From positions 17,233,917 through 17,297,916 of the forward strand of contig NC_092571.1 of NCBI RefSeq assembly GCF_037975245.1: DNA of 64,000 nt. The letters are read 5' to 3'. The notes below the pieces were generated by a model. That model searched no databases. It saw only the letters and a list, made by a program, of their open reading frames with translations, and had not been told where the DNA came from. A program made the position numbers and the translations under genes. This DNA is from Apostichopus japonicus. Lineage: Eukaryota; Echinodermata; Holothuroidea; Aspidochirotida; Stichopodidae. This document shows positions 15,470 through 62,340 of the stretch, in pieces; the first letter of the stretch is position 1; the number at the start of each line of letters is the position of its first letter.

Positions 15470-15505
<36 letters not shown>

Positions 15506-15920: not shown

Positions 15921-15926
15921 AATAAA
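15921..15926 (+). terminator. Probable DFFA polyadenylation signal
   Basis: An AATAAA hexamer lies 52 bp after the DFFA stop codon. No transcript evidence is available, so the 3' end could also lie further downstream. Confidence 0.45.
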
Positions 15927-18900: not shown

Positions 18901-19864
18901 ATCACTTTAACCATATAAGAAAAACTTGATTGAATATCCAATTAATTAAAACTGGCAAGAACTTGTGCTTTGATATTATGAACCCCTCCATCCCCCTATA
19001 AAGTAAATAATAAAGGTTCAAAATAGTAAAACCTGTCATCATATTGAACAATTGATGGACTGTACTGGACATTTGCATAGCACATCCTGCAATACCAAAA
19101 CTGTCCTTAGCTACACCGGTAAGAGCAGTCTGTACTACTAAATCTGATGCTAGCAAATGCATAGTTTGTTTGGAAGATAAACGCAAAATAAAAACAAGGA
19201 AAGGGGAAAAAAAAAACAGTTGAGATTAATTATCACGCAAATGGTTCGGGTGGTGTTCTACTTAACAAAAAAAAAAATACTTATATGTCAATGGAATAAG
19301 TGAGTATAAAATGGTTTTCAGAGCAACATAATTTTTTAACAATTTTAAATTTACACTCAAGTACTGATTGCTAGCTGCATGATACAGCTTTATTTTAACC
19401 AATTTTCAGTATGTCCAACAAATTATATAACTCCTATCAGATTGCTAACTTAAAATGACTGACAGAAAAAACCAATTGAAAGCAACAAGGGTAACTAGAT
19501 TGCAGCAAGCAAAAAAAATAAAAAAGCTTATTTCTTTTAACCTAAATATGTAAAATAAGAAATGCGTAAAGTTAAAACAAAATATGAGGTTTGTACTGCC
19601 TTTGAAAATGGGTTTGCCCACAGAATTGATCTCAGTTGATGAATATGTGTAATACAACATGGCAGAAATGTGACCCCCCTCCCCACCCCACTCCCACTCT
19701 TTGACAACATTACATCATGACATGTTATAACTACCTCAGATGTCAAGTTATGATCATAATTATGTTTTTTTAATAGTTTGCATGAGAAGTTGAAAACAGG
19801 TTAGGCCTCCTGATCACAAATATGCTAATTCTGCAATGAATATTCATGCTGCTATATATATATA

Positions 19865-19895
<31 letters not shown>

Positions 19896-22100: not shown

Positions 22101-22120
22101 AAGCTATTAATAAAACAGTT

Positions 22121-22130
22121 TTTATTTATT
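22121..22130 (-). terminator. Candidate KIF1 polyadenylation signals
   Basis: The plus strand reads TTTATTTATT, which gives two overlapping AATAAA hexamers on the minus strand. They lie about 440 bp after the KIF1 stop. This is position and motif only. Confidence 0.35.
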
Positions 22131-22568
22131 TTTTTTATTTTAGAGTATTGACACATTTTCAGCCGGTCAGATAGTTGCATAAGGAGTAATTAACATCTGA
22201 GAGCATATCACATACATATATCCATGCTATACCTAATTAACACCTGGTGACCTACAGGTCAAAGGATATCCCAGCAATACACACCCTGTTGGGAGAGTGA
22301 GTAAATTTAACCCCCAATGTTCATCTCTTGACTGGTTTTAATAAGACTTATAAGATATTTTTAACTTTCCAAACAAATTACAAGAATTTTTTTTCAAATA
22401 TCGATACTGACAATCATAACAGGTTTTAACGGCTTCTGGACCCCGACCTAATGTACACTATCAATGTGACCACTTTCATTGCAAAAATAGAGAGCTGTTT
22501 GTATATACAGAATATCAACCATTGCTATGGATTCTCTGTGCTTGATTCAAGATGGCGGCTGTCGAAGT

Positions 22569-22608
22569 CTACACGGCCATGTCGTTGGTCCTTCTTGCAA
22601 GTTTAGAT
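22569..22608 (-). CDS. KIF1: KIF1 exon 28, short terminal exon with stop
   Basis: The 40 nt encode [12 protein letters not shown] and TAG after completing the Arg codon from exon 27. It aligns with the vertebrate KIF1A end SKLSRRRSAQMRV. The acceptor is TTACCCACAG. Its size and the in-frame stop after exon 27 make it easy to overlook. Confidence 0.9.
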
Positions 22609-25600
22609 CTGTGGGTAAAAGTAAAGTAAGGATTGAAATTACAATATTAAAGGAAAACTGACTAGTTTTTATGTTGAAAAGCAAATCCAACAGATAAGGC
22701 GAATATATTGGGAATGGTAGTCGGTTGGAGAGGGGTAGGAAAGGTGAGGGGAGGGAGTGGGAGAGGGGAAAGACGGGGTGTCCAAGTGACTTTTTAGAGT
22801 GTACTGTGCTGCGTGTGAAAGGCACTTTCACAGAGCTGTATATCGTAGCCTTCCTAATCTTTCCTCGGAAAATTGATCTCAACATGTGACTTAAACGACA
22901 GACATTGTAGACAACAGCAAAACAGAAAAAAAGAACAAACAAAATGATCTAATTTCAACGATAGAAAATGAAAGAAACAGAACTTCCATTTATACTTGGA
23001 GAACATACTTTTCAGGCAATCCTACAGGCAAATGATAATAAACCACTTATGTTGAAAAAACAAAAATATATATATAAAATTAAGAATTTCCTAATATGTA
23101 AAATTAGTGTGTAAAAGTAAGTTGGCCTGACGTTTCAATCCTAGCAGGATCTTCTTCAAAGGCTAAATGACAAGTCAAAATTTGTATAAAAATAAAAATA
23201 ATTCTACCGCTCTCTTACCTAATAGAACCGGCTAAGAGAGGATTGAATGCATACAGCCAGTCAAAGAGATCCTTATCTGCCAGAGTCTGAAGTAGAAATC
23301 CTCGGTACTTGGTACTGACTGTGAACGTGTTGGGAGTCTGTAGACCGAAAGAATAGTTACAAGTGATACTTAAACAGCAACGTCTGCAAGAGACTGTTTC
23401 TTGACTCGCTGGTCTCATGACGACAATTGCTGCTTCAAAGCAGCCATAAAAAATGGAAGAAGATAAAGAAGAAGAAACCGCAACGATTTATTTGTTCAGT
23501 TATTGACGCCGATATACTATTGAAAACCGATAAACTGAATCAACAGAACTCCTATATAAGTTAGAAAGACCAGTAATGTAAAACTAGGTCGAAGTTTAAG
23601 ACACAATTGACAGATACAGGCTTTCTTCGGGGAAAAAGAAAAAGGCCCCGGGAGATACTGATCTGTAGACTCTAAAATTACCACCGACCCAGCGATGCGT
23701 ATTAAGAAAATATTGGCAATAATTAAAGATTTCCTGTATGTGAAACATGCTTGATTTTTTTTTTCGGAGCAAAATTATGAAGTTAAATAAATGAATGAAG
23801 CTAACTTAAAGTGCAGGGAAATTTTCAGGAGAGGTGGCACCTGGGAGGTACCTTGGTCCACCCCTGGATACCACCGTTTTTGCTGCCACCTATGGATATG
23901 TTTCACTTCCGTGAAACGTTTCACGGTCCGATCTGACCTTACCCAATGTATAGGGGAAGAGTCTCATATTAAGACTATAAAAATGTCAGGCTCATTTGTG
24001 AAAAGTCTTAAAGACAATCTAAAATTTCAATAATGTTGAGGGAAATAAAATGAATTATTGTCCTTACATATAAAATATGAAGTCTTTTTTAACTAGTTTC
24101 ATATTTGGAGGCAGCATTTAATAAGTGGTAAAATAAAGCTTTCTAAAAATATACAACAATGGTCGGATAACGCATTACATCAACTATCAGCATTCATCCC
24201 GCCAGCACCCTTTTCACTATTAAACTTAAAAAAGATTTAAGAAGCATGCAGATGCCTTTCAGAATTCTCTCCAGTGTCATAACCAGGATATGCATTGAGG
24301 GAGATGGTTGGGAGAGGGGTGCAAGAAGGGTTTGGGAAGTTTTCAATTTTCATTTTCCAAAGACAACTTGAAGGTTAACCCATTTCACATTTCGGACTAC
24401 ACATTTACTATGTAAATATGTAAAAATTGTCTTTCTATTTTGTTTGTGGCAGGGAGTAGGGGAGGGAAAAGGGTTGTGGGGAGGGGGAAGGCTTGATTCT
24501 GGGTACAGGGGAGAGGGTCTCTCTCCTTCTCACTACTACTCCAGGTTATGTCACTGATTCTGCTGATTAAATTTGTTTTCAGTATTCACCTGTTGAGGAG
24601 GTGAGGCGGCCATTACTCTTTCAGAATCACTTACCCTCAACATAGCCTGCTGGTCCTCGCTGTACTCAATCCTGGCCAATGCCAAATTGATTAATCCCCT
24701 CTCTACGGGATCTTTATCGGTTGAGTAGATAAAGACATATGGCCGCCTCACCACTACGTATCTGGTCACCCATCCGGCGGTCTCTTCTTCCAGGAAGTTC
24801 AAGAAACCCCTCCGAGACACCACCGGGCTGAAGGGAGGAAAGAGGAATTCAGACACAGCCCTAAGTAACTTTATCGAGTCCGATTTCGATGGTACGCTCC
24901 AAATTTTTGTGTTTTCCTTTGAGAATTTTGGAATTATTCACTGATAAATAGGAGATAAACATCCAGGGACACAAGCGTATTTTTCCTGTGAAGTGCACAG
25001 AACTTCAAAGTCTCACTCGATCACTCGACCGATTTAGGCGGTTGGCATGGACCCATTTGGAAGGGCCAGAGTTAGATTTAAAAAAAATAGGAGGTGTGGG
25101 CCCAGGGTAGCTGATGCAGACTCCAATGAAGGTTTACACATCTAACGGTGTATTCTGAGGCATATTTTGACTTTGGTCTATAACTATGTCTGTAATACAA
25201 AGTTGTGCCAATGAAATACTCTTTGAATTCGGGCTTTCACCAATTCACATGGGAGTGTTAGCTCAGTGGTTAACGCCTGTGCCTTCCAATAATAAGGTCC
25301 CCGGTTCGAATCACTCCAAGATTAATGTATGTCGTCCAGTTACAGAGTTGTTGACAATTGACAATTCTTCATCATGGACGTTAAATATGAATCTTAAAGA
25401 CTGACTTCGGTCAGCTTGTGGCTTTGATTAGCCAATGAGGCTTCTTTGCGAGTTCCTGCTTGCAGGAGGATCTAAAATACATACATACATACAAATGATC
25501 TATTCATGCTCTCACTGACCCCCTACATACTCCCATCACCCACCCTTGCTTTACCTTATTCTGATTTCATCCACCTCCGGTACGAACATAGGACGGTGGT

Positions 25601-31600: not shown

Positions 31601-34600
31601 CATAGAGAAAAGCAGGATCTATCCAGGACTAATACATTAACCATCAAGATTCTTACCACTAATTTGTGGCGAGTTAGGAGCAGTCGATTCAAGCAGTTCT
31701 CTTAGATCATTGTGACTGAGCGAGAAGCCTGTAAGTGGGAAGTTTTTTTGGTTTTGTAAAAAAAATTAGATTTGTATGTGGAGATTTGGTTTTGGGCAAA
31801 GCACCAGATATTCTTATAAGTATTAGCAAAAGAATGAAGAAAAATGTACCATTTTCTTGTCAATGTTCTGGAAAGGTTTTCTTTTTTGGGGGGAGGGGGG
31901 AGGAAAATGCATCAAACTGTATTATAGGACAATAGGACAGACCTTGCCCCTCCCCCACCCCCCACCCCCTTGTCGTATTCATCAAAGTGAACATAAGCTA
32001 ATTGTCAAAACCAAAAGATGACAGAATAAAAACAAATCTCCCACATCCAGATTCCCAGTACCACAAAGAGCGAAGACAAAAGTCAATTAGCAAGGAGTTA
32101 GTGTTCAGGATAGCACTTTTAAGATAAGAAATAACTGGAAACAGAGGAAAGTTGTGTGAACCCAATCGAATACCGTTTACTTTTGAAAATGGCCGAGATA
32201 TGACCTAGAAAGGAAATACCGATTTGGAATATGATGCACTTTTCATTTTCTACCTCAATTTTTTTGAATGAATCACTGCATCCTCTTTGGTCCAAATATT
32301 TTTTTTTGGGAAGTCGATGGTAAATGAATGAGAGAAAAGATAAACAGAAATTCAAGATTCACTTGTGAAAAAAAAGTACAAAAAAGTAGTTTTATCAAAG
32401 GAATCGCTCGTGATAATGGAAAGGAATTTACTTTAAATCTGAGAGACATTTGAGAAGAGTCAGACTAAGTCAATTTTTAAGTTTTGTAATGAATTTTATT
32501 CTTTAAAATTACAGAGTAAACCCTCACTTTAAATCAAATCCCCCCACCCACCCCCACCCCCACCCCCCGCCAAAAAAACAAAACAAGAAAACAGAAAGAG
32601 AAACAAGAGTTACAAACCTGGACTCAAGGCTTCTGCAGATCTTCGCAAGGAGACCTCATAAATTCCGCTCACTTTGTTGCTGCAGGGCGGAAGATGTATG
32701 AAAAATGGAAATATCAAAATAATGTTGACGATTTGAAACAGGCATTCTCAATCTTCCTGGATAGTATGGAACATTTATATCATTCCATGGAAAGAGAAGT
32801 CACATTCAAAACCAATTCATCTCTCATCTGAATCAAACAGATAATTCACCACAATGTATATCATCAGCAAACATCTCCATCTCGTGTCAGGGACATGCCA
32901 AGGAATGATTTATGCAGTGGGGGGAGGGGGGGGGATTGGCAGGAAATACGGCAAAAGTTCTACTAGAAGATAAATAACAAACTTAAAAATATACCCAAGA
33001 CCTGAACATGTAAATTGAAATCTTTCAAAGACAATAAAGTTAAAAATATTACTCTTCTATCACAAGTGAATTCAAGACTTACATCTCCATAGGTTTGTAC
33101 GAACTCCCAAAGAGGGTCCTTAGGGTGCGGGAGGGGCTGGTCCTTGCATCCCTCTCGTACATGAGGAGACAGATGTCCTTGGTGATGCAAGCAGACTGAC
33201 CGCAGTTTTCAAGCTAGATGTGAAGAATACCAAACAACTCGTAAAATACAAAAAAACTAGACAAATTCTGATGTAAGTAAGAAGGTGTCAATAAATGACA
33301 TCATGATTCCGTTTAGCGACCTTGGGTCTACATCAAGTCGCTGGTGAAGTTGGGCCAGTTTCAAGTATGTTTTCTTTTGGGGTATGAAGGGAGGGAGGGG
33401 GGGGGTGAGGAGTTGAAAACTGTTCAAAGAAGGAGGAAAAATGAAATTTTCTGAAGGTCTTTAAACCTCTCTTCCCTTTTTTTCTTATTACTCTCATATC
33501 TTTTCTTGCTCTCATCAGATATTCATAACCATGTGAGGATAAAATGTGAAGTTGGCAAATGCTGAATGCATCATGTCTTTTCCATGAGATCAGAATATGG
33601 CATATGTGATAACACTATGCCTTATGGGGGTTTCCTGTGACATTTGTTGGATGTACAAGCAAAAGATACATTCCAAATTGAAAAGAAGTGAAAGCAATTT
33701 AAGGAAAAAAGAAGGAAAAAACAACTTACTTCAAGGTAAGCTGAGAGGGTAAGATACACTGCCTCTCCATAGGGGGTGACTCGATTAAGGAGGATGGAGT
33801 TATGAAGAGAACTGTCCCAAGCCGCCTCAAATCGGAAGAAAGTTCTAGGATAAAATCAGATAAAATGTTATGATTGTCGTTAGAATACAATGAAGAATTA
33901 AATGTTATGAAAGCTGACTAAACTCATTTAAATAACAGAATACATAAAACCATTGTTCCCTGAAGTATAAAACTCATGCACTCTTTCTATTGATCACTGT
34001 GGAGATTTTCCAAAGACAAAATTTCTACTGATAAAGAGTGCATTACCATCAAAATAAGACTATTTCTCTTTACAAGCCAACAAACCAGTCCCACTTGCTA
34101 TGGAAACTATTGTTGCATGAAGCAGACAAAGTTTACAACATGTCAAAGTTACTTTTATATCATTCAATATTTAGAAAATACATCCTTTCTGCAATCTTTT
34201 TTATCTTGGCAGGGTAGGGTGGGGTGCCCACAAGGGGTGTGCAGTCAGCTTCAGAGGAAGATGGGGGAGAGAGGGGGAGAGAGGGGGGGCGAGGGGGTTA
34301 GCCAGATCTAGATTGTGACAGATGGGAAAGGCACTCTATTAAAATTATAAAAAAATGATTAGGGAGTGGTTTGTCATTGATGGGAGATCTGCCCGCTGTC
34401 CCTTCCCACCTCCCCCCGCCACTAGACACCATGGCTATATACCATGCACTGGTCTCCTCACCTGTCATCCCCGGGGTGGACGATGTAGTTGGCTGGTAAC
34501 AGGTTCAGAGATAGAACAGAAGTCTCACTGTCTGGCTCCGTAACTTCTACCGTATTTCGGATCCGTCCTACAAGATGAAACAGATAGTTTTTGCATGAAT

Positions 34601-37600
34601 ATTAGACCAGCAAAGCCACTGGATATTCAGAAATGTTTAGTAAATTATGACAATTTGATTTATTGAAAGATATGTGGTACTTACGTAGATATATTTGAGG
34701 GGTTTAATAAACCTATTCCATACGTATGTATGGGTGTGTGTGTGTATGGGTGTATGTATGTATGAAATGCACTATGGATGAACAACTTCAGTTTCCAATA
34801 GAAACTAGCAGTTTCTAGGTAACATGACACCATTACAATACCTATCTCTTTTATGTATCAACAGTTTAATATCCTACGAGCAAGTACGATTCTTTGGCAC
34901 TGACCTACGACTAGTTCTCTGACGTCCTTCCAAACCAGTTCGTTGGTCGCCTCGTGGATCACCGTGATTGCGATTCGTCGCTGGATGCCCTGGTGGAGCA
35001 AAAAGACGCCGTTGCAGGGCGTATCGTCCAGATGATCAACGTACGCGGGAATGTACCTGTAGACGAAAAAAAATCATATTTATCAAATACTATATTTTAA
35101 TGTAGTCATGTAGCTCATTTAGCTAAACTTGTCATTTAGCTTTTGAAGAAGATCCTGCTAGGATCGAAACGTTAGGCCATCTTACTTTTACACATTCTCT
35201 TACACAGGCTCTCTAGTGGATAAGCAGTTTGCTAACAGTTTTATTTTATTTTGACTATATTTTAATAGTACAAAGGTTTATTCAGAGACAGAATTGTCAG
35301 CTTATTGTAGCATTGATTCCAGAAAATGATCACACCAAGACAATGGCGTACCCTCCAGTTTGATTGTAGTCTTAAAAAAATAAAAAATAAAATAAAAAAT
35401 GCATAGACCAGGTTTTCACATCATAACTAAATCGGGTAAATTGATCACCATCACGAAACCTATACTATCATTAACATTAATTTTATTATAACAACTGTGG
35501 AAAACTTTTTAAAAGATATTTTTAATTTTTAATTTTTTATATTTAAATCATCTGGGGCATTTTTATGATACTTAACGTTTTGGTGTCACTTCAGTCCTGC
35601 CATGCGGACAACTCGTTTGTTACTTTGCAGATGTTTTCAACTTTGACTCCACAGATTTTAAAATTTGATGTTATCAAAAAGACACATGAATAAAAGGATG
35701 AGATGAGAAATATCTTTCAAATTAACTGCTTTATCAACTAAAAATAACTGTCTAGAAAACTGAAATGCATAAATGATAAATGGTCCGTTTTATAAATCTC
35801 ACAAGGATCTTCTTCGGAGGCAAAGTTTTCTTATGATGAAGAAATCCTGCAAGAATGAAACTTTAAAACGGGGAAAAAAACCAAGATAGATGAATGGCCA
35901 ATACTTACTCTCCAGATGGAGCCAGTTCGCATATCTCAAACCAGACCAACAAATCGTGTTTTGAGTGAAGGTGGCTGGTACTTGGAGTGTTTATAAGACC
36001 AATTTTTGGAGATGGAACTGGAAAAGGAAATGAAAAATTACGGAGTGTTAGCTCAATGGTTAACGCCGGTGCGTTCCAATCATAAGGTCCCCGGTTCGAG
36101 TCACTCCAAGATTAATGGGCACGTGCTCCCCCACTTTTTTCCAAAATAGCAAATGTGCCCTATTGGCAAATAATAAGTGCCCCTTTGATGAAGAACTGTC
36201 TTTTAGATATCTTAAGCCTTTGTTAATTTTAATATTTAATTTTAATTATTTATTTTTAGTGTGTACATGCTATTTTTAATTAGCATCCCTCATCTTCTTG
36301 TAGCACGGTTAACAATAAACAATCTCAATAAATAGTATTGATAGCATACTAACACATCATATATATTTAAGTGATATGGCCGGTGTGTATTGGTTTATAG
36401 CATAACAAGTGGTGGTTGTGGAATGAGAAATTGCCCCTCTGATGTTGGTCCCCCCCCCCAATTTTTTGGAAGCTTTCTGCCCCTCTGTACATATCTGAAG
36501 GTATCTAAGATGCTCACCTGGTCTGGCTAGTGGTAATGTCGGCGGGAAGATGCGCTTCGAAGGTCGGACTCTGAAATGCGACGGAAAGACAACTTGCTTT
36601 AGTTCTACGAATAATGCTGCTGATGTGAACATTAGCTATTAAAAAATTGGTCCGCTCTACTATGAGAAGAACATAGACATTTGACCTGAATGCAATATAA
36701 CTAATTCAAAGACATCTGGTGCAATAAAAAAACACGGTAAAACAGAAATATGTAAAGTAAAACAGAAATTATGCTAAGATGGAGGAAGCGAACAAGAAAG
36801 ACATGAGATATTTAACACTTGCACCGTGCCTGTGGAACTCACTTCCAGAACATGTAAAAATGTGCAATACTGTGAACGGTTTCAAATCAGCTCTCAAAAC
36901 GTACCTTTTCACCAAAGCATATATGTTATAATTGTTATTATTATGTTAAGCGCTACGAGAATTATTTCATAGTTTGTTTGGCGCTATATAAAAATGAAGT
37001 ATTATTATTATTATAAATGATGTTAGTTTTATGTTTTGAAATTAGAGAAGAAATAACCCTCTTCTGAACTTTTGTGGCAATCATTTCAAGGAATACCTAC
37101 CTCCCCCCCCCCCCCCCACACACTTACAATAACTTCTGACAATCTTCTAAACTGTTCATCAGGTGTATGGGTTGCACTTTGGGTATCAGCCTCTACTGCT
37201 GTCCTGCACAAGCACCAAAAACAGCTGTGTGCACAATAATTATTTTTTGTTTTGTTTTTATTTGTTAGTATATGTTTTGTATAAAAATTGACAATATCCT
37301 CACCTGGTATGTTGTTGGCTCTGGGTATGAAGAGGGTGTGCTTGGTAATGCCCCAGTACCTCAAAGACAACAGGAGAGGTCTTTATATAGTCGACGAACG
37401 CTTTCGTAACAGTCACAGAGATCTGTTTTAAATCACAGGAAAGATCAAACATGATTAGGACATTTATTGTGGATCAGCAGAGGGGAAAGGGATTTCACCT
37501 CAACATATTTTGATTACTTTTCTGTCGACTGATGGAAGATTTAAAAACAAACATATGCATTAATATGTAATGAATAAATCAACAAGAACTGGAATAGGTA

Positions 37601-40600
37601 CTTCCACAAAAAGGTGGCATTAAATTATGCTGAATTGTATATTGCTGGATTTGTAACATATTTATACTACGAGGGATGACATCATAATAGCAAGACTATA
37701 ATACATGTATTGGTTGCTATGGTGACATCATTCACTCTGTTGTTGCCAGGTGCAAAATAAAACCAATATATGACAAATGTATTTCTAAGTTGCCATACAG
37801 TATGCTATGAAGCTGTGACTTTGACCTATAGATGCAGACAATCTCAATTTTCTAGAGCAATTAACTTTTGCTACCAAAATATCCCTTTAAGAAATTTATA
37901 TATAAAAATTACAAATCATAACCTAAAAGCTAAGTCCTGAAACCAAGACATAAATATATAGCATACTGACCGCTCCTTCTTTTACCACACCGACCACTTC
38001 TAATAAACTGACCACTCCTTTAGTATGTAAACAAGTATCAACATTTAAAGAGTAAAAACAGACACTGCTAAAAAGCATGCATTTTCACCAGTGTACTGGG
38101 CACATTTAAGGCAATTAAAGACAAAAGCTTGTACTGAAAAATGGCTGAACAGAAAAACAAAAATAAAATGATGGAAGGTTTTCAGCAAAGGTTTACCAAA
38201 GACGTAAACTGTGGAACTGATATAGCACACAGATGAAAACTGGTTTTAGTTTTGTAACATAGAAAACATTTTCAAAAAACTGTTTCCGTTACCTACAACA
38301 TCATAATTTGCAAATATTGTTCACATTCTTTCCTTTCTCTTTTTGGAACCAAAAAGGAGAGTGATAAGAAAGGGAAAGATTAAGCTTCCCCCATAAATGG
38401 ATACTATCAGTTTTTGCTGTTGCTTTAACTTGACACTTTGCAACTAGTGCCTTCAGAATTCTAGACTACATCAAAATCAGAGAGCAAAAGGGCACAATTT
38501 AGACCCTCGGACCAGATTGATAAATTCCTCAATTTGAACATTAAATGAAATTTTTATGTTGAAAAAGAAAAAGAAAATGACCCAAAAATATGTAAAAAAA
38601 AAATTATAAATTACAATCAATTTGACTAATTAAAATTCACTAGGTGGGGTCACTTCTTAATTTCACAGTAAACTAAAAATCAAACCATCCCACTTATTTG
38701 ATATTTTGAAATATTCTTCAACTAAGTCGGTTTTAACATCAAAACGAATTTCAGACTTACTGATTCATCGTAAGTCTGCCAAGAGCTCTCAAATTTAGGC
38801 ATAAAACGTCAAAGTAAATTTGCACACGAAACATGATAAAAACACAAAACATTTCTGTATATGGATTAAAAAGATAAATATTACTAAAACCCACTTCTTG
38901 GGAGCAGCCAATTGCACATATTAAACCACATACCATGTCCATTATAAATGACATTGACCGTTTTGCAATAATTATGAGAATGTCGCCTGATTTCTGCAGA
39001 ACCGAACAGACTTAACGATCCCCAACCCAAACTTGCAGACTCATAGAGAGCGATTCAGTTCTCAAACAGATTAAACCACTTACATTCTGTACATAGTATA
39101 CGCCAAGGGCCCTACCCGTGTGGTTGTTTTCAACTGACGGAGTTACAAATGCCTCATGCCCATGCAGCAAACTGTCGAGAAACAGAAATTTTATGCAGGT
39201 GTTTTGCGTCATGAAAAGTAAAATCGAAGCAGGGCGTGAAGCGGAGCGATTTTTGAGACAGCGAACTGCAAAAAAAGAGGTATGTGTTGTGGCGATGGGA
39301 AAACGCAGACGTTGTATAAATAACGAAACAGGGGATTTTGACATTTTAGAAAAGGGAGAGAATTTATAACTCCAAAACTTTGTTTTTAGACATTTTAAAG
39401 TAAACTCTGGAGTTAATATAATCAGTTGAGGATATGTTTTACAAATCTTTCAGAAGGAAAGAAAAATTGAGCAAAGTTGTTAAAAAACTTAATAAAGCCA
39501 ACTAGTTAAATTAATTCTCAAATGATTTTGGTTATTGATGTTTTTGTTGTTGTTTCTGTTTTTGATAGAAAAAAATATAATTAAGTTTAGCTTTACTATT
39601 TCTTGAAAAGATTGATTTTTTAAACTACTTTCAACACACTCGCGGACGCCCAAGTTGGAGATGATAGCATTTAATCGCCGCTATGTTTCGATAACTTGCA
39701 ACTACTGTTTAAGATTTGTTTGTATATGTAGTGAAATTAATTTCCATGGAAACAGCCTTTAGTGAAATTTATTTCCATGGAAACAGCCTTTTCGACAAAT
39801 TACAGCAAGCAACGATTATCTCTTTTTTAGTTCGGGTCATGGTTTTTCTTTTATCCTAACAAACCTGCGGAAACAATCGCATTAATAAAATTGGCCTCAA
39901 TTTTAAAAGAAAACTGAAATTCCAGCAAAAATCTTTCACGAGGTCTCCTGTGTCATGATAAAAGAGTTTTAAACAAAATTTTCAAACAAAGCAATGAAGC
40001 TCTGTAAACTAGCAAGATATCTCTCATTTTCTTATTTATTTTTTACCCATTTCTTTACAGACTTTGATAAATTATTCATGTTTGATAAATCATTGATAAA
40101 TACAGAGTTTAAGTAAAATTATGCAAAGTTATGAAAAAGCTTCTGGTTTGGAGAAATAATCTGAAAAAAAGGTGTGAATATTCTTGTCTGGGTGTGGCTA
40201 GGAACTGAGCATATTCTAACCAAAAGCCATGTCTCTTTGTAAATTTTTGATCTTGCAATCCGGGCTTTTCCGCAACATCCTAAAAAATCTTAATCATCAG
40301 TGAAGTAAAATTTGACCTTAAAGTCTGTGCCGACAAACTTATGCAAAGGATACAATTTAGCCACAGATAAACCTAAAATTTGCTCTTTACAAATTATGAA
40401 ACGTTTTTTTTAAGAAATAAGGTAATCAAATGTTAGGCAGTTTTAATATTTCCAAAGTTGGAGTGTTTAAGTTGGTGTTTAATCAGCTTGCATAAAAAAA
40501 AAAATTGTGAAATAGCACTTAAAGCTAAGACTTAAAATTAGCTTTTATAAATAGCATGCCGAATTATTCTCACATAAAACTCCTGTTCCAGTTTTTCTCT

Positions 40601-43600
40601 CATTCTTTCTTGGTAAAATTTTTGGAATCTGTCTCCATTTTAAGAAACTAAGATTCTTAAGTTTTGGGTTTATATTTTTAAAAGTTTGCAAGGGCGTGTA
40701 GAAAACAGGTAAAGAAAACACGCACGCACAAAAATAAAAGAGACATTGATTAAACATTTATTATAAATCATAATAATAATAAAATAGATAGCAGAGAGCA
40801 AAAATGATAGGTAAAGGCACATAAAACACAAAGCTGGTGAATGGAAATCTTTTGGCAGCGCCGGCAAAACCTGTTTGGCGCAACTTACGTTCTGCACGTG
40901 ATAAAAGCCCATAGGGGGCCCGTTAGGGGTGTTTTTAAGGGGTTCCGTGGAAAATGCTTCGTCATGGTGATGCAAGAAACTTCGAGAGAGAAAATAGCAC
41001 AATCGATGAGATGAGATAAGATAAAAAAAAATAGATGATTTGAGATGCACTCTCCATATTTGAGACACATTCATAGAAAATCCGGTGTTTGGATTTTTGA
41101 AATAATCTTTTCTAAGTTTTGATACAAAAGTAAGCTATATACTACTTTTGAAGTTATTGAAAATCAGTCATAGATCATTAATTATGGGAATTTTGACAAA
41201 CTTTATGAGTAAAATCTTATCACTCCCCACCCCTCCCCTTCCTCTACCACAGAAAAATGGTTTGTATCTTTTAAGTAATTCATTTACCAATTCTTTTCTC
41301 CTTTTGCTGTTTGCTTTCCTTGTTCTTTGTCATCACATAGAAAACTTCATCACGTAGGAACGTCAGAAATATAGATTAAGTACAGATTAAATTAAAAGCA
41401 TGCCATCAATCTGTCTCGCAGACTAAATCCAAACAGTCACTGATTATTTTGCTAACCAATGTGGGGGGCAAAACTTACTTGAACTGGCAAAATATGTCTG
41501 AATATTCCGTAGATATGCAGGATGCTTGCAATACTGTCACGCGGAATGTAAACGTCGATCCTATCTTGAGGTGTTCGGGTTCGACCCCATCACTCTGCGA
41601 AGTGACCGATTCCGCCTTGCAAACGTCATCCATTTCTTGGGCTGCTTCTTCAAGGTCTGAGCGGGGAAAAAAAAAAATTTGAGTGGAAAATCGTTTTCAT
41701 CCTTTCTCAGTTATTTCCTTGGATTTTCTTTACCAATAAAAAAAAAAAACCCAAAAAACAAGAAGGGTTGCAGAAGCATCTGCTTTTGCTTAATAATATA
41801 TAAACATAATTAACAACATATATTAACAAAATATAATATAGTAAACATAGTCCAGTTCCCTTGATCTGCATATTGGTCTGTATGCAGGATTTTCTATAGG
41901 GTGGGGCGTTTACTGAAGATGTGGACCGTTTTATTAGCACCGTCCTGGGGGTTGGTGTCTATATTTGTACAACTATGGGTGCTTAGAGACAACATCTTTA
42001 CTACAACCATATCAATTTGTTTCATTTTTATGTCACAGCTGGTGTTTACCTCCCAGCAGCAGGAAAGACCATTTCTCTATACCCTGCAAACAATGGACCA
42101 TTGAAACCATCAGGTTATTTTTTAACAACATTATCTTATATTAAATTTAAAAATGTTTTTTTTTCTTCTACAAAGATTTATGAAGCTCTTCCATATATTA
42201 ATGTAAAACTTCATGTTATATTACAGAGTGGTGAAATTGGACAATATATGACAAATTTTTAGAGTCTAGCAAAACAATGTTGTCAGCAGACTATGTGACT
42301 AAAAATGTGGTGTATCAGAAAAACTAATAGTGTTGAAATATGTTTAAAGGGTCAATACAAAATATGATAGATATACTAAAATGGTCAAGAAGTTCCTAAG
42401 ACATACAACATACTTGTCAGACACTTTCTGTCACAGTTCTCTCTCGAGTATTAACTTTTCAAGGTAATCAACATTTTGTGACGATATTTGTGTTCCCCAA
42501 GTATTCATGGTGACCATAAACTAAGCTGCATTTTTTGGGGGGAAAATCAAAAATGATATTTCTGTTTGCTTTGATTTTATAGTTGCTTTTAAATGTTTAA
42601 TATTAGACTGAAACCTACTGCATTCTGAGCTGTCTCGATGACCCTCCACGATCCGTATGTTATCTTCCGACATATCGGACCTGCTCATGAGCGAGACGTT
42701 GGTTGGACTCCGTTTGAATTTCTTGTCAAAGTATTCCTCGTCGTTGAAAGTGATCTTTGCCGTGCCGGACTGCCGTACTCCCGAGCCGTACTCGTGAGCG
42801 TTCTCATCCTCGCTCACGTGTTGCACGGCAACCCGGAGGTATCCCTTCACGTCCCCCTTGTCGTTGACGATAGCCACTCGATGTACCAGGGGGAGGGGAC
42901 AGAGTAGGTTGGACAAATAAACAAATGCTCTGTTGGAAAAAACAAGAAGACGAAAACATGTGAGAACAGATGTCCGTACCATGAGCGAACATCAGAGTAG
43001 TATTAACTAGGAGTGTACGACTGAGGGAGTCTGAATAAGAGGGAGGAGGAGGGGAGGGGGGTTGCAGTAGGGGTGGGAAAGGGGTAGACTTTAAAGATAA
43101 CAATTCAGAGCTATATTTAGAAAGGCCATGTGAATCCTTCAAAAATCTTGCAAGTAAACATATATTGGCATGTTTGCACAAATGTTTAATAAATAGAACT
43201 TGAAATTGTATTTAGGCATACCCATGTGGATATTTTGTATCCCCATTGCAACTCTTATGGCTTTTTTCAATATACATTGTCCCTTAAATAGAAATATAAT
43301 AAGTTCATGAATTAACTTTTTTTTTTCTAATGATGTCTCTCCAAGTGTCCAAGTTTTATGTCTGTTTAATACATGTGCATTAGCTCACTAATCGATACTT
43401 CCGCAATTTCCACCAAAATTCATAACTTTCTCCAGATTTGGACCATCTGTTGTTACTATTAACGTAATAAACAAACAAAGAAGTGTATTGTCCAGATCAA
43501 TGGTGACAACTGTAGCTCCTCCTACTTCACTGCAACCAACTATACCTTAAAGTTTAAAATAGGAACGCGATGAGCAACCAATGAGTGACCTACCTCCCTA

Positions 43601-46600
43601 CTAGTCGAAACCATGGAAACCTGTCGTAGAAGGGATCTCTACAGGTCAAACTATTTTCAAAGTTCACTCCGGGCTCCGGACTAGTTGGCGTAGATTCTGC
43701 AGCGTTATCGTACATTTCCCTCATCACCTCGAGCCGTTTGCTAAAAAAACAAGATTTATACAAAAAAAAAAACACGCATCGGTTACATGACCTATGTCAA
43801 GAATATTCCTACATATGCTTTCAAAATCTCCCACGAATGACGAGTGAAATGTTGTATAAATTGTCTCTTGTTTATCTTTTATGAAGTTATGGGTTTGCTT
43901 GCACGCACCACTAATTGAGGGTTTCAACAACACTAGCTGATTCCTGGAAACCGACTGGGCAAAAAATAACAAGCTTTGACTTCAGGAGGGCAGTAGATAG
44001 CTTAAAGTTTCAAGCATGTTGTACACATTCTGCAAATATTTAACTTATCCTACATGTAGATCCCAGATACATCGATAACAGTAAGTGTATGCTAGCCTAA
44101 AGTCACCACTGATCACATAATGGTCAGCAGTGAAAACTTTAGACGAATTGATGTTCCAATGTAAATACCTTTCCTCCCCCCACCGCCCCCCCCCCCAATG
44201 GGATTTGGGAATAGAACAAGTTACAGAAGCTAGTAGCTGTCTTACATTCTTTCAATGTGCCTTTCAATCATAATTGTCCCGAGTTCAAGTCACTCCAAGA
44301 TTAACGATTAATGATAGTTACAGAGTTGTTGACAATTGACAGTTGACAATTCATAATCATGGACGTTAAATACGAATCTAAGAGACTGACTTTGGTCAGC
44401 TTGCAGCTTTGATAAGTCAATGTTGGCTTCTTCGCAAGTTCCTTCTTGCAGGACTATATAGAATACATACATACATACACGCACACACCCACACACACGT
44501 ACAAACAGTATAGTAGCACACATAGTTAAACTGTATGTATGCAAAATAACGAAGAATTGAATACTAAATATTAATTGAAATGGTTTGCTTGTCATATTAG
44601 GCAGCTATCGACTGTTTGGTTTTATGGTTTTTATGGTTTGGTTATGTTTCTCTATAAATGCCTTACCGCAGTTTCTCCAAGGTCCAATAGTGTGTAGCAC
44701 CATTCTTTTTGTCCTGTACCTCCGCAGCCACCACTGTTCTCGGGAACGGGCGCTGCCATGTCACCAGACTGTCGTCGTTGGGCATGAGGTCAGAGGTCAA
44801 AGGTGAATACAAGGTGTCACTCAAAAGTACAAACTGAAACTCAACCTGCACAAAAGAGATAATTTTCTAGTTTTAAGTTTTTACATTTTAACCAAAACAA
44901 ATTCCAAAATGGCAGAAAATTGAGAATTTTTGAAAATGGGTATAGAAAAACAAAGATCAAGATAGACAACATCAGGTATAGGATAACTTCTAACTGACAG
45001 GTTATGCAAATGATGTCATAAAAGCACTAACTTTGATAAGAAATTTTGTCTGAGGTGGAGTAGGGAGTGGTTGGTGAGGGGACGGGGTTGCTACTGGAGG
45101 GAAGGATATTAAAGAATGGTGGTTAATAAAAAATATAAAAAAATTATAAGTTTAGAACAAAGCCTTTGCTCATTTGCTTTTCATCTGTGCTCAATACCAT
45201 TGTGTTTTTACATTATTTTTCATAATTTTTCTGTGGTGTTAGTGAAGGTAGAGAGAGGCGTTTGGAGGTTGGTAGAGTTTTCCCACCCTACAGAAAATGT
45301 TGAAAGTTCATTACCTTCTTCTTGAGTTCAACACTGATAGCGTTCGCTTCCTTCAAGAATTTGGCATTTCCCCAAAGGTCGTCCTGTGAATGACATGTAA
45401 TGATGGATGCCGTCAAATGAGAAAGTATTTTGTACGAGATATCAGATAACTTATTCATGCTAAGCTCCTTTAAACTAGCTATAGGTCTCTAGAATCATGC
45501 TATTAGAAGGAAATACACAGAAATTGTTTTATGATACAAGAACTCACTCTAAGCTACTTTAAAGAAGCATTCAGGTCTGATTCAGCTTCAGGAATCATAC
45601 AAAGGCTTACATAACATTGACCATATTATACACAAGAACCTATTGTACACTCCTTAAAAGCAATATGTAGGGTTTTTAATTCTTCTTTTAGTAGGAGTGT
45701 TAGCTGAGTGGTTAACGCCGGTGCCTTTCAATCACAAGGTCCCGAGTTTGAGTCACTCCAATATCAATGTATGTCGTCCAGTTACAGAGTTGTTGACAAT
45801 TTGCAATTCATAATCATGGACGTGAATTGTGAATCTAAGAGATTGACTTTGGTCAGCTTGCGGCTTTGATAAGCCAATGATGGTCTTCTTCTCGAGTTCC
45901 TGCTTGCAGGAGGATCTAAAAGACATACAATTTAATTTATAAAGCATTACACTAAAGAGATATACACCATTGACAGTACCAAAGAAGACTATATGCTACA
46001 CTCCTTTAAAGTAACATGTTGGGTTTCATTCAGCTTAGTTAGCATTACGCTACAAGGTATACACACCATTGATAGTATCAAAGAAGAAGTCATATTAAGT
46101 TTGTTCAGAACCATCCATCCAGGTGGTTCGTTTGGTTCGTATTTATAATGGAATCTATCATGTGGATTTACTTGTGGCATACGGTATGTGCCAGACACGG
46201 TAATCGCTAAAGAAGAGATCGTACTCACCCTGATGGAGGTAAATCTGTAATTCTTCCACTTTCGAAGCACCCAGATAGCCAACTGTTGTTCAGCTTCTGT
46301 CAAACCTGATGAGAGAGGAATGAAAATCAATATTATTTGATGGAATAACTCAACAAATTTATTTTACTGCAAATTCTCTCTGTTTTTGTCCAGTATATTA
46401 TATACATATTTTATCTCATTTTATCCTTTTGACAACAGATTATTAATATTATATCAGAGAAATTAAATAGATAACGTTTGGTAATAATTAAACTTTTATC
46501 ACTGAACGTTATCATACTATAATCAAACTCTATAACACCATTGCGTCCATTTCAGCAACATCGTTCATTTGTGAGAAACGGTTCTCATTTGACTTTATAT

Positions 46601-49600
46601 CTAATGTTAGAAGTCAGTATTGCACCCATATTTTCTACCACAAAATGAAACAAAACAAAATTGGTCACATTAACTGAAAGTTTAAATTTCTCAGTTTATA
46701 CTACTTTTTAGCACATTTTTGTTTATGTTAGTCACATTCTGGGTTGAATTTTGGAGAACATGAGCATTTCTTGTAAATTGTTAGTCAATTTAGATATGTC
46801 ACAAATTTGATTGCAATACAGACGACCTTTCATTACTATAATTATCCAATATAAACAATAAAACAAATAAATCCATCTGACTCATATTAAGATAAAAGGA
46901 GCAAATTAAAGAGAGTAAACAACTCACCTCCATCATCCAATTGCCAGCTTATTTAAACAAATTTGTTACCATGGAAACAGCATATTTAATTAGCAGTATA
47001 TAAGTTGGATACTCCTTGTAATTTGCTCCTTTTCTAATTAAGTATAAACTGAATATTCAGTATTATGTAATTACTGGATTAGTCAGGAAAAAAACTAACA
47101 TTTGCCAGGATAGAGAACTTTACCATTTTTAAGCTAAAAATCTTCTTTTCTGAATAACTTTGCATGCCACCAAAGAATTCAACATTCTTTTGAGAGACTG
47201 AGCCAGTCAAAATAACATCATTTAATGTCTTTATCAGGAAATATACGCTACAAGTAGTAGTAAAGAGGATTGTAAAATGATTTAGCATGTGACCACTTCA
47301 TAACTAGTATTACACCAAAAATATGCCAGAAAGAACACCGGTGCTAACTTATTTTGGAACTGTATATCCCCTTTTTGTAAGTTCTACGTTCAAAGCATTT
47401 TCATCACTTAGAAATTTTCTCTAACTTTGAGCTACATCAAAACCTACAGGAAAATAATTTCCCAAGATTTTCATCTAGCAGATAAAACTTTGGAGGCAAT
47501 GCAACATGAGCTTTCATTTCCTGGCAAAGTTAGAATAAAAAAATATATAAAAAATATAAATTTTGAAAAAAGGAGGGAATGTTAATAACAGAGAGAAATC
47601 TGGCGTGCAGAGCTTGACGGTAAAAATGAAAGAATGAAAATACAAAGGAATAAATTGATTAAATAAAATAAAAAATTTGATGTTATCTTGATTCATGCAA
47701 TACAATGCATGTCTATAAAATTAAAAGGAAGAAAAAGGTATAAATTCAAATAACTTGACTAAAAGTGAAATAAATTAACATATAGTTCTAAACCTAAATA
47801 CAATGTGGGCAATGAGATGAGACACACGTTGGGCAGAAGTACAGTGATTAGTGGTTAATTGCGTTGAAAGTATACATTGTAGAATGAATAGTTTTTATAA
47901 TCCTCCAGGTTTCTACATCTTTATGTGAGAGGTAAATTGTTGTAGCAGTTTCTAAGTATTACAGGGATATATCAGTTACAAATTAAAAATAGACAAAAGA
48001 AACAAATGTTAGAGACAACGATTTATACGTGGAATATGAACCAGAAGTAACTGTTACGTTTCTATCTGACTCATGTCAAACATGTCTAATGTCTTCTCCG
48101 AACCCTGTAGTCACACGAAAGGTTCACTTTGCTCATAATTAACCAGACAACTAAGCAAATAATTTCATGTTTATCAGAATTTGTGGGTATTAAAAATTTG
48201 AAACAGTTAAGATAAAGAAAGTATACGCTTTGTAAAAGTATCTGTCCTGAACAAATCCACCCTCCCCCACCAACTTCCTTTGGGAAGGGGGAGGGGAGGA
48301 TGAGGAGGAGGAGCATAAGGGGATGGGAGATGGGAACCTTTAGAAAACTCTTTGGCCTCTTAACAAGCTAAAACATTGGGCCAATACAAGTCTTTGTAAA
48401 AATTTATGTTACACACTTATGGATGGTTGAGGAAACAAACTTCTCCAAGACTCTCCAAGCTCTTTGTGAACGACAAGACAAAGAAGCAATCCCTGGACAA
48501 AGCATTTTGTTTTTGTATGTGGCAAGCTATCATAAATGAATGTTAAATAAAGATACTACACAAATATCATACAAAGGAAAAGTGTTATCAAAGCAGATGT
48601 TGAAATAAGAGAAGAATAGCAGAGCATAATAAAAATAAAGGCAAAAGGAACAAAACATGATTAATCAGGGAGTCATTTATGAATACATAATTGTTTTGAA
48701 AAGCAAAACAATGTTTACACCTTGAAGATGGAAGAAGCCAGAATTTTGCATTTTGCTTTACAAATTACAAGTGAGAAAAGGATGGGGCTTAAAAGGTTTC
48801 TGGGGAGGGGCGGGAGGGTTGGGGGAGAGGTAGGGGAAATGTTGGTAAATAGTTAAGTTTCAGGCTCTAAGTATGCTGTTTGATGTGTCATGAACTACAA
48901 GCATATCTATGTAGTAGGAACAATCAATGTCAGTTTGTGGTGGGAAGGGAGAGTAGAGGAGCAGGAGAGGGGGAGGGCGGGGGGGGGGGACGTATGATCT
49001 CTATTAATCTAAATTAAGGAAACCACCAAAATGCTGATTGTGAATTAAATACAATAACCAACAAAGAGTCAACATTACGGCTTTTGTAAATACATTTTCA
49101 CTTTCTGAAGCATTGTTACAAGGAGCATCCAACATTGTTTCCATAGTAACAAAAATGTTTAAATATTAAAGCAATAGCAGTAAAATCAATCCTACAGCAA
49201 CAAAGGCGGCTAGGAGAAAGTCTTGTAGAAGATCAAGAGGCTTCCAAAATGAATCAATGAGGGCTTCTCAGTACAGGTTTCATCCAGTTGGTGTGATACT
49301 TTACATAATAAAAAATAGTTTCCTTGGAATTTTCAAGGCAAGAGCATTCTATGACCTTGCATTTACACAGTATGAGTAATCTTAGAAGATAGCTTTAAAT
49401 AACCTAAAAATATAATCACTTAACAAACAACAATTTACTTAATCTAAGATTAAGCTCTTTCTTTATGCCTCGTTTTGCTATATATAGCACTTGTTACAAG
49501 GAATTTTAATTTTAATAATGACAATAATGTTGAAATGTTACAAAATTTGTATGAATGGAAATTATATTCATTCATTTGACAGTCAGAATAAAACTGACTT

Positions 49601-54680: not shown

Positions 54681-57600
54681 CGTTTGTAGCAAAATCACAT
54701 CAAAACTGAAATCATATACGGATGAAAACTGAAAAACAGAAAAAAGTAACTCAATGAACATAAATTTTCTGAAAAATGTTAGTAAAAAAGATCTACAATT
54801 TTTGTCACCGACACCGACTTGTGAAATTAAGAACGAAACTATTCCTAATCTAATTTCTTATTTGGTTTCTGGTTACAAGTTTATACAGAATGTAGCTGCT
54901 TGAATTTATTTTTTTTGACATTTCACAAGCGACCATAGAGAGGCGTGCAACTCGTAAATTATACCCAAAGCATGATGGGATACCGGCACGAAATATATCG
55001 AGCTTGATTCCAAGGACGCTACGAGTAACTTGAGAGCATCGTAAAGTGGAAGCCTCAGCGACGGGTACTAGAAATAACACAAATTAATCAATGAAGTTGC
55101 CAAGGAAACAAGATGAGCGCCTCTGACTTTCATAAGATTGTGAATTATACTTCTAGCAGTATCAACAATGTGTTTTAGTAAACGTTGGATAAAAGCTCGA
55201 TATATTTCTCAAAACTTTCTTCTCAGTTAACCAAGAGTACTTACCCCAATGTATTTTGACAAATCTACCAACAGTTCTTGAGAAAACACACCACACATTA
55301 AAAACGACTTTTTTTTGTCGAAATTTGTTAGCTTTGTCTTGCAGGTGGGAAGGTCATATAAATGCCCTTAATAGCATTTTTTCCACAACTTTTGACACAC
55401 TACCTCTTCGATTGTGCTTTCAATATAGGTACAAATTTTCATCGGGGGGGGGGGTGGTAAGTGACTCTTTTGTCTCTCTAACCTTTCCGCACCCCTCTCT
55501 GGGCCGCATGTCACCTCATCTCTGTTTTCAGGACCAGATAACAACTCACGAGAAACAGAAACGAAATGATAATCAGCGAAAATTGATAAATATACCAGAA
55601 CACCGCTGCAAGGAAGAGAATGGTCATGAACTTACTCTCGATGTGATCATCGTCCTCATCGCAGCTCAGGCTCCCCGGGGTGGTGTTTCCCGACAGGAGG
55701 GTCACCTCCTCGACTTGCTTCTGGAGGGCCAGCAGGCGACTTTCATAATCCTGAAGGAAAAATGGCAGAAAGGTGCTTTTGTATTGCGATACTTTAATGG
55801 GTAGGGTAGCTTTAAAAGAACATCAAAATATTTAAGCCGTTTCAGTCTACTCAAAATGTCGCATATTTTCCAATCCAATACTTGAAGAGTTTTAATATAA
55901 GATTATGTAAAAGACTGATACAGATGGAATGTAATTAGTATTTCCAATTTAATTTTATACTAGTTATACTAACTTTATATCATGTCAAAAGCATCCATCC
56001 GTCAAGAAAAACAACTTTAAATTTTAGGATAACAAAAATTCACAAGATAGCTCAGCATTTGTTTTGCCATATTTCTAGTTTACAGTGGTAATGGAATAAT
56101 TTAATCTCATTAATAATCTCCTTCTCTCTCAGCTACACTGTTGAATTGTACCTTGTGGATAAATCCCACGGATAAAACCCATGTGGTTTTGCACATGGGT
56201 GTCTATTACTAAAAGAGACCAAAGTACAATTCACTCTTCCATACATTTATATATTCTCCATTCTGATGACACAAGAAAATTTAAACCAAGGAAAGTTTTA
56301 GACACTTAGATTTTGTTTATTTTCAGTGGTACTTTGTGCTACAAACTTTCTTATATTTAGTTATAGTTGCTTTAGAGTCCTTTTTTAAGGCCAAGGCAAT
56401 TCTCACACCAACATTAAAACAGCTAACCTCTGGTCGCTGGTAACTTGTCACACCCAAGCATGCACAATTCAAACAGTTGCTCCTGGACATCACAGTGCGA
56501 CCGACTATCCTGTGCATCCCTGTGGGTGACATCCCATAGGGTGCAACCGATATCCAGCACACTCAACCCTATTTAATACTAGGTTAAGCACTTGACAGGT
56601 CCCCATTTATACACCTGGACAAACACATAATGATTCAACCGGGACTCGAACCAGCAATCCTTTGATTTACTATAGCCGTATACCATGTGACCACGATGCT
56701 CTGATATGAAGATATGACATTTGTTTATCCGATGTCTAAATATAGACTGATGACTCACCTGTCTCTGTTGCTCCAGGAGCAGATCTGCCTCTTCTTTTTC
56801 TTTCCTGAACTGTGTTTCCAGGGCAAGCAACCTTTGAACAAGAAGACTCTTATAATGGATGAAATGTTACCATGACAACAGAACACAAAATATTTTGCTG
56901 GAGTTGACAAAGCATGATAAATGACTTGTAATCAATAAAAACTCTAAACACAGATCGTGGAAATTATTTTTTTAAACAACAGGCAATAAATGTCATCTAA
57001 AAGAATCTATGTATTTAAACCTAGTTAATTCAATTCATCCTGATAAACTTTTCGGACATTTTTGATACGCTGAAGCATCTGCTGTTATGCTATGCAATCG
57101 ATCACACACTTTGAATTCAGGTATTTGCCCAACAGAGGTACTTACAAACACAAGCATCGGAATTATAAAGTACGCCATCTTTGGGAATTTAAAACAGAAT
57201 TTACTAAAAAAACTAACCTTTGCTGCATCTCCTCTTTAATGTCAATCCCCTGTTTCTGGAGAAGTTCTGTCTGTGCGAACGACCAGTCCACCATCTCTGG
57301 TCCGTCCCCTGCAGGGGTGAGATGGGTGTTGGTGGGGGTCGAGTGAGGTGACTTCTCACGTTCCTGCCTCAGCTGCTCCGGGTTGTTAAACCGAAAGACG
57401 TGGTATTTACCTATGATGATTCTGTATCCTGAAAGGGGGGGGGGGGGGATTGAAAGAAACAGAGCATTATAAAGTTGGCAAAGGGAGAAGTTATGAAGTC
57501 TCCGCAAATTGGTTCTGAATGGCTGGTGAATGTTTAAAACCAGTTTTATGTCGTCGGGGGCTTGCAATGATTGGTGCAGAATCCAAAGCTCCAAGGGAGA

Positions 57601-59975: not shown

Positions 59976-62340
59976 CTGCGGGTGAAGTAGATGACAGTGA
60001 TACAGTATCAGAGCTGTATGTATCATAACAAGGTGGTATTATGTGGCTCTGATATGTAATAAACAAAGGGTAGAAACAAACCTTTGTTCTGCCTGACTGT
60101 TATACCCAATTTTCACTTTCAAAGGCTGACTTCAAGTCCACATCTTCCCATAATAGCTAGCATGTTATATTTTTTAATGGCCAAGTTTCAAATTGACCAA
60201 CAACAGCTCACAATGACATGAGCCAGTTTCTTTCTTTGACAACCAAGTATCTAACCCACAACTGACTGCAGGGATATTAAACTAGTCTCCACTTTTTAAG
60301 GTCAAGTTTCGAACCCACAGCATGCCCATAATGAAGTGATCAAGTTTCTATTTTTAAAGGCCAAGTTTCGAACGCAGAACTACCCACAATGACTTGATCA
60401 AGTTTACCATTTTTAAAGGCCAAGCTTCAAACCCACAATTACTTATAATGAAGTGATCAAGTTTCCAGTTTTAAATGCCAAATTTGAAACCTACAACTAC
60501 CGTCAATAAATATGCTATATTTTTTTTTATATTTCTTTTAACTAGATCAGATATTTCTAGTAATAAGTGGAATGGAGTTTCACACAAATAGGAACTAAAA
60601 TTATATGGTAAAGCACTGGCTTCAATATAATGTGTAATGTACAAAGTAACCTATTCTTCTCCTTCCCTGCCCCCCCCCCCACACTCCCACTGAAAAACAG
60701 TCTTGCCAAACACTGATTGATTCCTCTACAAACTTTGTACTTAACTACATAGCTATGAGCCACCACTCCACAAATCAGTCATTAATACACTTTGTGTTAC
60801 ATATATGATATCACTGCATGATACTGCTATAAACACAACTAATGAGAGCACTGCAGGCTGAAATGTCCTTCACGAAAAAAAGACGATATTGAAGTACAAC
60901 GTCGCCAAAGTTAATGAACGGTAACCTTGATATAAAAATATAATCCATGTACTTTTGTTACGACGGTTTACAATGGAAGATGAAAGAATTATTGATGTCA
61001 TCGCTGTAGGATTAGATAGTTAACCTTGAAACTGCCTCTGTCTAACAATTAGATATCTGTCGATGGGGAATATCGATAGGAATAAATTCAACAATTACTT
61101 TCATACTGGCTCGCCGTTTATAGAGAACTCTTTGTGAGTCAGATACGACATTGAAAGAATAAGCTCCCATTTTATCCTAATCGATTTATCTTACTTCTTT
61201 CGATCAATGTTTCAGTGATTGACGTTGCTTAGAAAGTGTTTTATATTGCAAAATTCTGCTAAAATTTATCATTTTTTGATATATACACTTTTGGCCATCA
61301 CGCTGGCTAAATTAAAGAAAACCCTTTCAACGTTGATCTAGACAGATGGAAATTTATTATTAAGGTCTGATGAGACTGTTTCAGTTTTCTTGTGTATATT
61401 GGGTAGTATCTAAAGTCACAGAATGATCAATTAATATTTATACATTGATATATAGGTTAGTTCAGCTTCAAGTGCTTTTTCCCACACCAGAGTATTAAAG
61501 GAGGAGAGGTACCAATGCATCTGTTTACCCTCAAAATTCTTGGATAGGGATGTAAGATGTAAGGTAACTTTACCAGTAATCTATTTATTCCCAGTAACAA
61601 ATGGATATTTCAACTCTTCCCATATTTTTTATTCAGTTCTAGCCTTCTTCCCAAAAAACTACTACCACCACAAACATTCATACCACCTTACAAATTTTAC
61701 ACCTTAATGTCCCTCATTTAGTAATTAACTAATAAATAACTGATTCCTTGCCTATGCTGTGCCCTTGAACCCCACTCAGGGGGCCTAATGATGTCAATAT
61801 CTTTGCCGTTGCCTCATCAGAACACACAAAAATCCTGGGAAGCCTCGTTATGACTAATTACTCATGAAACAAACAGCCACTAGCCCTACATTCTGTGAAC
61901 TTGAATGTAGTTGATGTCAGGGTGAACACGTAACCCTTTATAAACACTTTCCTTCGACTTGACGACGATGTCATGAACAAATCATAACAGCTTGAACTAC
62001 ATATTGAAGGAGACAGCCTTTGCGATTGGTCGATGAAAGAAAGAAAGAATGGGTAACCTTGTCATTTCTAATTATCGGGAGAGCAACGTAGCCGATGCTT
62101 CGCTAGAATTTGACCTCCTCTAACATGTAGCAGATGTCAAGAGCGCACTAATCGAAACAAATCCCACTCATTAAAGTCACAATTAATTCCCATACAAGCC
62201 ACTCCACTGAGTCAAACAAATGACATACATCTCCTTGGAATTAATTGATTGAGAATTCACCGACCATGTCCAATGTTGCTACTAGGAGTTTAACTAGATT
62301 GCAGTCTGGAGAATGCAACCAATCCCTCCCCCCTCTACTG
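59976..62340. other. KIF1 intron, no exon seen
   Basis: Apart from the minisatellite, I see no segment matching kinesin motor or neck sequence. A C11 run lies near 60670. Confidence 0.5.
60179..60500. repeat. Minisatellite, about 60-bp period, five or six units
   Basis: Units begin with words like AAGGCCAAGTTTCGAACCCA and contain AATGAAGTGATCAAGTTT. Starts lie near 60179, 60299, 60357, 60416 and 60475, with a degraded unit near 60240. It lies in the KIF1 intron upstream of the first exon in the window. Confidence 0.8.

Follow-up and report, generated by a model that had tools for sequence, protein, structure and literature searches.

A KIF1 gene with two adjacent homologous stalk exons

We analyzed a 64,000-nucleotide stretch of Apostichopus japonicus DNA (the window; positions below are counted along it) and, within it, two adjacent exons of a kinesin gene on the minus strand, which we call exon A and exon B. 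Judged by its domains, the host gene is a KIF1/UNC-104 kinesin-3, because motor-domain exons lie upstream and FHA, KIF1B, DUF3694 and PH regions surround the exon pair. Motor, Kinesin_assoc, FHA, KIF1B, DUF3694 and PH regions are all present, and the Pfam KIF1B and DUF3694 regions flank the swapped exon on either side. A human KIF1A sequence, used both as a query and in a hand alignment, matched the gene in the window exon by exon. That a single KIF1 transcript runs across these domain regions was deduced from their order and strand only.

Exons A and B are neighbors with identical splice phases (Table 1). The original prediction for this DNA, made from the letters alone, had given both exons a leading T, an end in phase 0 and a GTAAGT donor, and on the minus strand we found all of these, coordinates included. 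Both copies are intact, with phase and junctions in common, and between 41479 and 37422 the frame is kept by A alone or by B alone. Over the stalk stretch, isoform A encodes 568 amino acids and isoform B 567, with no stop across the 13 exons of each. Joined translation placed a TGA at the sixth codon in B when A and B were included together, exactly where it had been predicted, and skipping both exons led to a TGA at the fourth codon. Joint use and joint skipping thus both hit an early stop and are non-productive, so that productive mRNA requires exactly one of the two exons. The KIF1 assignment, the exclusivity by frame and the openness of B, all claimed before, therefore check out.

Table 1. 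Exons and regions of the KIF1 gene, listed from the upstream end (a slash marks an exon boundary).
Feature	Coordinates	Strand	Remarks
Motor-domain exon matches, n = 4	Within C11:17299258-17312076, upstream of window	-	One reads through TAG, as is possible with six-frame matches
Upstream KIF1 exons with Kinesin_assoc and FHA regions	57214..59978	-	
KIF1 stalk stretch, 13 exons per isoform	33730..46305	-	Joined into isoforms A and B
Upstream constant exon	41479..41656	-	Ends in phase 2, ..CAG TTC AA/gtaagt, at 41479
Exon A, 91 nucleotides, vertebrate/worm-like version	40889..40979	-	Acceptor TCTCTCTCGAAG/T, donor AAC/GTAAGT
A-B intron, 1,717 nucleotides	39172..40888	-	
Exon B, 88 nucleotides, diverged alternative	39084..39171	-	Acceptor TTTCTCGACAG/T, donor AAT/GTAAGT
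Downstream constant exon	37304..37422	-	Phase 0 start, ATC TCT at 37422
C-terminal KIF1 exons encoding PH domain	23218..24829	-	

Exons A and B are homologous

The A and B peptides are identical at 14 of 29 aligned exon-encoded residues (15 of 31 columns when the gap and the junction Asn common to both are counted), in keeping with the roughly 15 of 30 reported from the first reading of the sequence. Their alignment scored 63, against a mean of -16.6 (standard deviation 8.7) and a maximum of 23 for 5,000 shuffles (z 9.1). When exon peptides were searched against the window with tblastn, B was the sole strong extra match of A (E 8e-5; A's next best, 0.34), and no other exon peptide had an extra match better than E 0.005, with 7 of the 25 peptides translated in the wrong frame. 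The human KIF1A query found A at E 8e-13 and B at E 0.034. At the DNA level, 50 of 87 positions are identical. By codon position the identities are 17, 22 and 11 of 29, third positions being more diverged than second (Fisher p 0.007), and the alignment has a single indel, exactly one codon in length.

We rejected an assembly or haplotype duplicate, as the flanks of A and B fail to align. The flanking introns share alignable sequence only in a few bases directly ahead of the acceptor, and the duplication is therefore likely to be old. Single-copy status was judged from loose genome-wide searches (671,581,487 bases in 35 contigs): the exon B query returned no A, and diverged copies elsewhere could have escaped them. 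Searching the gene for other tandem exons, by tblastn of the exon peptides and with the human KIF1A query (E < 1), gave none that was convincing; for the seven wrong-frame exons of 25, this verdict comes from the human query only. A weak match to the peptide of exon 45383-45315 was seen at 47370-47417 on the minus strand (E 0.005, 56% over 16 residues). By eye, it has no GT donor behind it, and it is either a decayed exon copy or a chance match.

Splice signals

Splice sites were scored with matrices built on 12 further KIF1 exons. Exon A scored 7.1 at its donor and 3.6 at its acceptor, and exon B 6.2 and 5.8. Of 206 intronic GTs, 5 scored at least as high as the B donor, and of 189 intronic AGs, 10 did so against the B acceptor; for A, the counts were 4 and 19. 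UGCAUG, an RBFOX-type motif, occurs in exon B (39166-39161) and again at 38081 in the following intron, with 4 occurrences in 14 kb of the gene. These sites are a regulatory lead only.

Further downstream, a candidate 76-nucleotide cassette lies at 37128-37203 on the minus strand, between exons 37422-37304 and 36570-36518, with a cag/ acceptor and a /gtaagt donor. Its inclusion shifts the frame, with a stop seen by eye in exon 36017-35909, and the cassette would be poison-like if real.

The exon pair lies at the site of UNC-104 suppressor mutations

The part of the KIF1 stalk that separates the coiled coils from the PH domain has been described as conserved and largely uncharacterized (PMC9005198). 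The same report deals with C. elegans unc-104(e1265), whose PH domain is mutated and shows reduced binding of PI(4,5)P2, and with D948N and A950V, intragenic suppressors of the PH-domain mutation D1497N, which fall within the exon equivalent to A and B. The authors describe the D948/A950 site as a conserved loop and propose that the substitutions there may prevent inhibition that depends on cargo; introduced alone into the wild type, either change was without noticeable effect on movement or on a vesicle marker (PMC9005198). The worm exon begins at the identical upstream junction (TTCAA/intron/TTTC). In the loop, A reads HHHDEAF and B reads HGH-EAF. Thus, B has only one acidic residue where the worm has the D948/E949 pair, and it retains the alanine corresponding to A950. 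Just past the loop, the changes in B include S to V, E to P, P to S and K to E. In the hand alignment, A, worm and human KIF1A agree at 19 positions; B keeps 10 of them and changes 9.

Where does this segment sit in the motor? In the autoinhibited kinesin-3 KLP-6, the MBS and the following MATH domain lie packed on the motor or close to it, in positions that conflict with binding to microtubules, and the stalk domains adjoining the segment studied here help lock the motor (PMC9314371). The swapped exon comes after the KIF1B/MBS region and, by order, should sit in a MATH-like domain. Neither the sequence nor a 3-row profile of the swapped segment matched a PDB entry. We discarded a hit to aldehyde dehydrogenase (E 0.22-0.32), which spans the terminal histidines of that protein and looks like a tag match, and a longer stalk query found only the Kif13b fragment 5b64 (E 0.0049), with a match that lies before the swapped exon. 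As the segment aligns to no solved structure, its place in the MATH domain named in PMC9314371 is one we infer. No Pfam family was found over the segment itself.

Because one acidic residue is lost at D948/E949 and 9 of 19 shared positions are changed, isoform B probably has an altered coupling between the stalk and the cargo-binding tail. A possible tuning of autoinhibition or cargo binding by the swap had been guessed, and the worm suppressors in the same exon lend this guess independent support.

A mutually exclusive pair or a relic

Taken together, these observations suggest that a tandem duplication of a KIF1 exon has probably been turned into a mutually exclusive exon pair, with exclusivity enforced at least by the reading frame. 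The choice between A and B would be made by a splicing regulator, according to cell type or stage, and messages carrying both exons or neither would be cleared by nonsense-mediated decay. Isoform A would represent the ancestral motor. Isoform B would exchange about 30 stalk residues between the KIF1B (MBS) region and DUF3694 and would trim by one residue the loop in which substitutions restore transport to a PH-domain mutant of worm UNC-104. The most likely consequence would be a change in the gating of cargo-dependent inhibition by the stalk, or in adaptor binding. A bolder version, which we regard as doubtful, is that B is a naturally "suppressed" KIF1: without the acidic residue of the loop and with its neighborhood recharged, it would escape cargo- or PH-dependent inhibition, and echinoderms would use splicing to switch a kinesin-3 between a cargo-gated mode and one independent of cargo.

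We looked for a physical device that would keep A and B apart (short intron, U2/U12 mix, RNA pairing) and found none, though such a device is not obligatory. At 1,717 nucleotides, the A-B intron is too long for steric exclusion. U12/U2 incompatibility was rejected, both donors being U2-type GTAAGT and the A-B intron having no U12 branch-site match; its one U12-donor-like match, at 40353, is away from any splice site. Frame, together with the predicted decay of misframed products, is the only device for exclusivity visible in the sequence. Among human mutually exclusive clusters, the text of PMC5740500 reports potential steric interference for 57 (9%), U2/U12 incompatibility for five (0.79%) and lengths not divisible by three for 377 (60%). 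Exclusivity by frame is thus normal for such pairs.

Exon B could instead be a dead or dying relic of the duplication that has stayed open and spliceable through chance and is not productively used at all. Silent drift in A combined with neutral drift in B could give the observed codon pattern, so we simulated that case, with A constrained and its silent sites free, B neutral, and 12,000 replicates matched to the observed DNA identity. The observed protein similarity was reached in 2.5% of replicates; 36% had no stop, 16% kept both splice dinucleotides, and 41 of the 12,000 combined all three. Adding the absence of a frameshift gave joint probabilities of 8.6e-4, 2.5e-4 and 7.8e-5 at assumed indel/substitution ratios of 0.05, 0.10 and 0.15. 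An earlier run that scored intactness alone gave 0.0005-0.011 at a fixed 0.45 substitutions per site. Both splice sites of B also rank high among the intronic decoys, and the only indel relative to A removes exactly one codon. A neutral relic is unlikely on these grounds, given the assumed indel ratios, and the initial argument for constraint on B survives the simulation.

Several results nonetheless pull the other way, away from a functional pair and, in part, toward a relic. The similarity test is modest when taken alone (0.02-0.03; 0.021 and 0.028 in a separate run of this part). Without the similarity term, intactness has probabilities of 0.011, 0.0023 and 0.0006 at the same three ratios, and in the earlier run, at a fixed 0.3 substitutions per site, 0.004-0.046, the upper end applying at low assumed divergence and indel rate. 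Silent change in A might account for part of the codon-position pattern. The frame of B is open far past the exon (39449-39012, 145 codons); as it extends into the flanks, lack of a stop comes cheap and has little weight. The GC content of B is exon-like (0.477), but since its 88-nucleotide flanks are elevated as well (0.43-0.44), GC carries little weight. Human tandem-exon events are mostly conservative swaps according to the text of PMC9741552, and the changes in B at otherwise invariant positions are more radical. Competing RNA pairing was not found: the longest exact complements within or between the three introns were 9-12 nucleotides and were equaled or exceeded by 12 to 60 of 60 shuffles. 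Finally, the pair is known here from genomic DNA of one species.

Two further explanations grant that B is spliced. It might act mainly as a poison switch, its inclusion with A causing a frameshift, decay and lower KIF1 dosage while the B-only protein has no role. The stop that A and B together create within B would serve such a switch, yet a poison exon needs neither preserved similarity to A nor an A-like phase of its own, and B has both; we consider this highly improbable. Or A and B might be functionally equivalent, B being redundant or a product of noise splicing. Of the 21 human tandem-exon events younger than the teleost split, only 2 have peptide evidence for both sides in the text of PMC9741552, a point in favor of equivalence. 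However, B changes positions otherwise fixed in worm, A and human KIF1A, K to E, E to P and the lost acidic residue among them, and equivalence seems to us the slimmest of prospects.

Relation to known exon pairs

A mutually exclusive KIF1 pair would resemble the human and Drosophila tandem exon sets described in PMC5740500 and PMC9741552: its members are adjacent, homologous, nearly equal in length and identical in phase, their lengths are not divisible by three, and the host family is ancient. It differs from them in its host, a kinesin-3 (neither "kinesin" nor "KIF1" occurs in the main text of either paper), and in the divergence between A and B, which is high and reaches otherwise fixed sites. 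According to the text of PMC9741552, ion channels and other membrane proteins are overrepresented among cases of fine tuning by tandem exons; the KIF1 pair would add a motor protein to these cases.

With the UNC-104 suppressors the pair shares the exon, the upstream splice junction and the H-D-E-A-F loop (PMC9005198). D948N and A950V were point mutations from a screen, whereas exon B is a natural one-residue deletion with many further changes that leaves the A950 alanine in place. Alternative splicing of KIF1 genes that alters the motor or the tail has been reported at other places. The short and long 3' ends of KIF1B arise by choice of terminal exon, elsewhere in the protein (PMC2636774), and the motor-domain microexon of C. 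elegans unc-104 is a cassette, also elsewhere, with no tandem homologous pair (PMC12084633). In addition, unc-104 is among the developmentally changing splice events of PMC2265522, the place not being given there. Nothing on this exon was found in passages of PMC10945585, PMC9013439 and PMC5896119.

Among the literature matches listed, whose supplementary gene lists were outside the scope, no tandem pair was described at this place in KIF1. The original prediction went further and held that vertebrate KIF1A and KIF1B have no such pair. The listed matches agree with it as far as they go, but such an absence is unproven: rat Kif1b is listed under "mutually exclusive exons" from RNA-seq in PMC12337383, with no position given there and with exons said to be identical in sequence. 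The place of the KIF1 pair gives it unusual value for tests: an exon swap at the segment hit by the worm suppressors would be a ready isoform pair for probing the function of the loop.

Other elements

A repeat with a tRNA-like head (GTTAACGCCGGTGCC...GGTTCGAGTC) occurs at 25269, 27478, 30511, 36059 and 45711 on the plus strand, five copies within 3 mismatches where none is expected by chance, and by eye there is a partial copy near 44265-44460. It looks like a tRNA-derived short interspersed element; ARAGORN called no tRNA. A 384-amino-acid open frame at 11388-12542 on the plus strand matches the hAT transposase dimerization region PF05699 (E 1.4e-4; score 22 bits, cut-off 21.4). A long simple repeat of the GGGA/TCCC type occupies 62241-62942, with several frames open on both strands. 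The full-length cox1 of the genome has AAA codons at conserved asparagines (GGFGNW, PRMNNMSFW), and code 9, alone of the two genetic codes tried, translates them as Asn; nad4L and cox2 come after this cox1. Both the code and the gene order fit an echinoderm, and flatworms use the code too. Outside the window, several cox1 fragments with TGA codons lie on another contig of the genome (G000:C29, about 14745-31219), and full-length cox1 is on contig C35; the fragments are either mitochondrial insertions or a misassembled mitochondrial copy.

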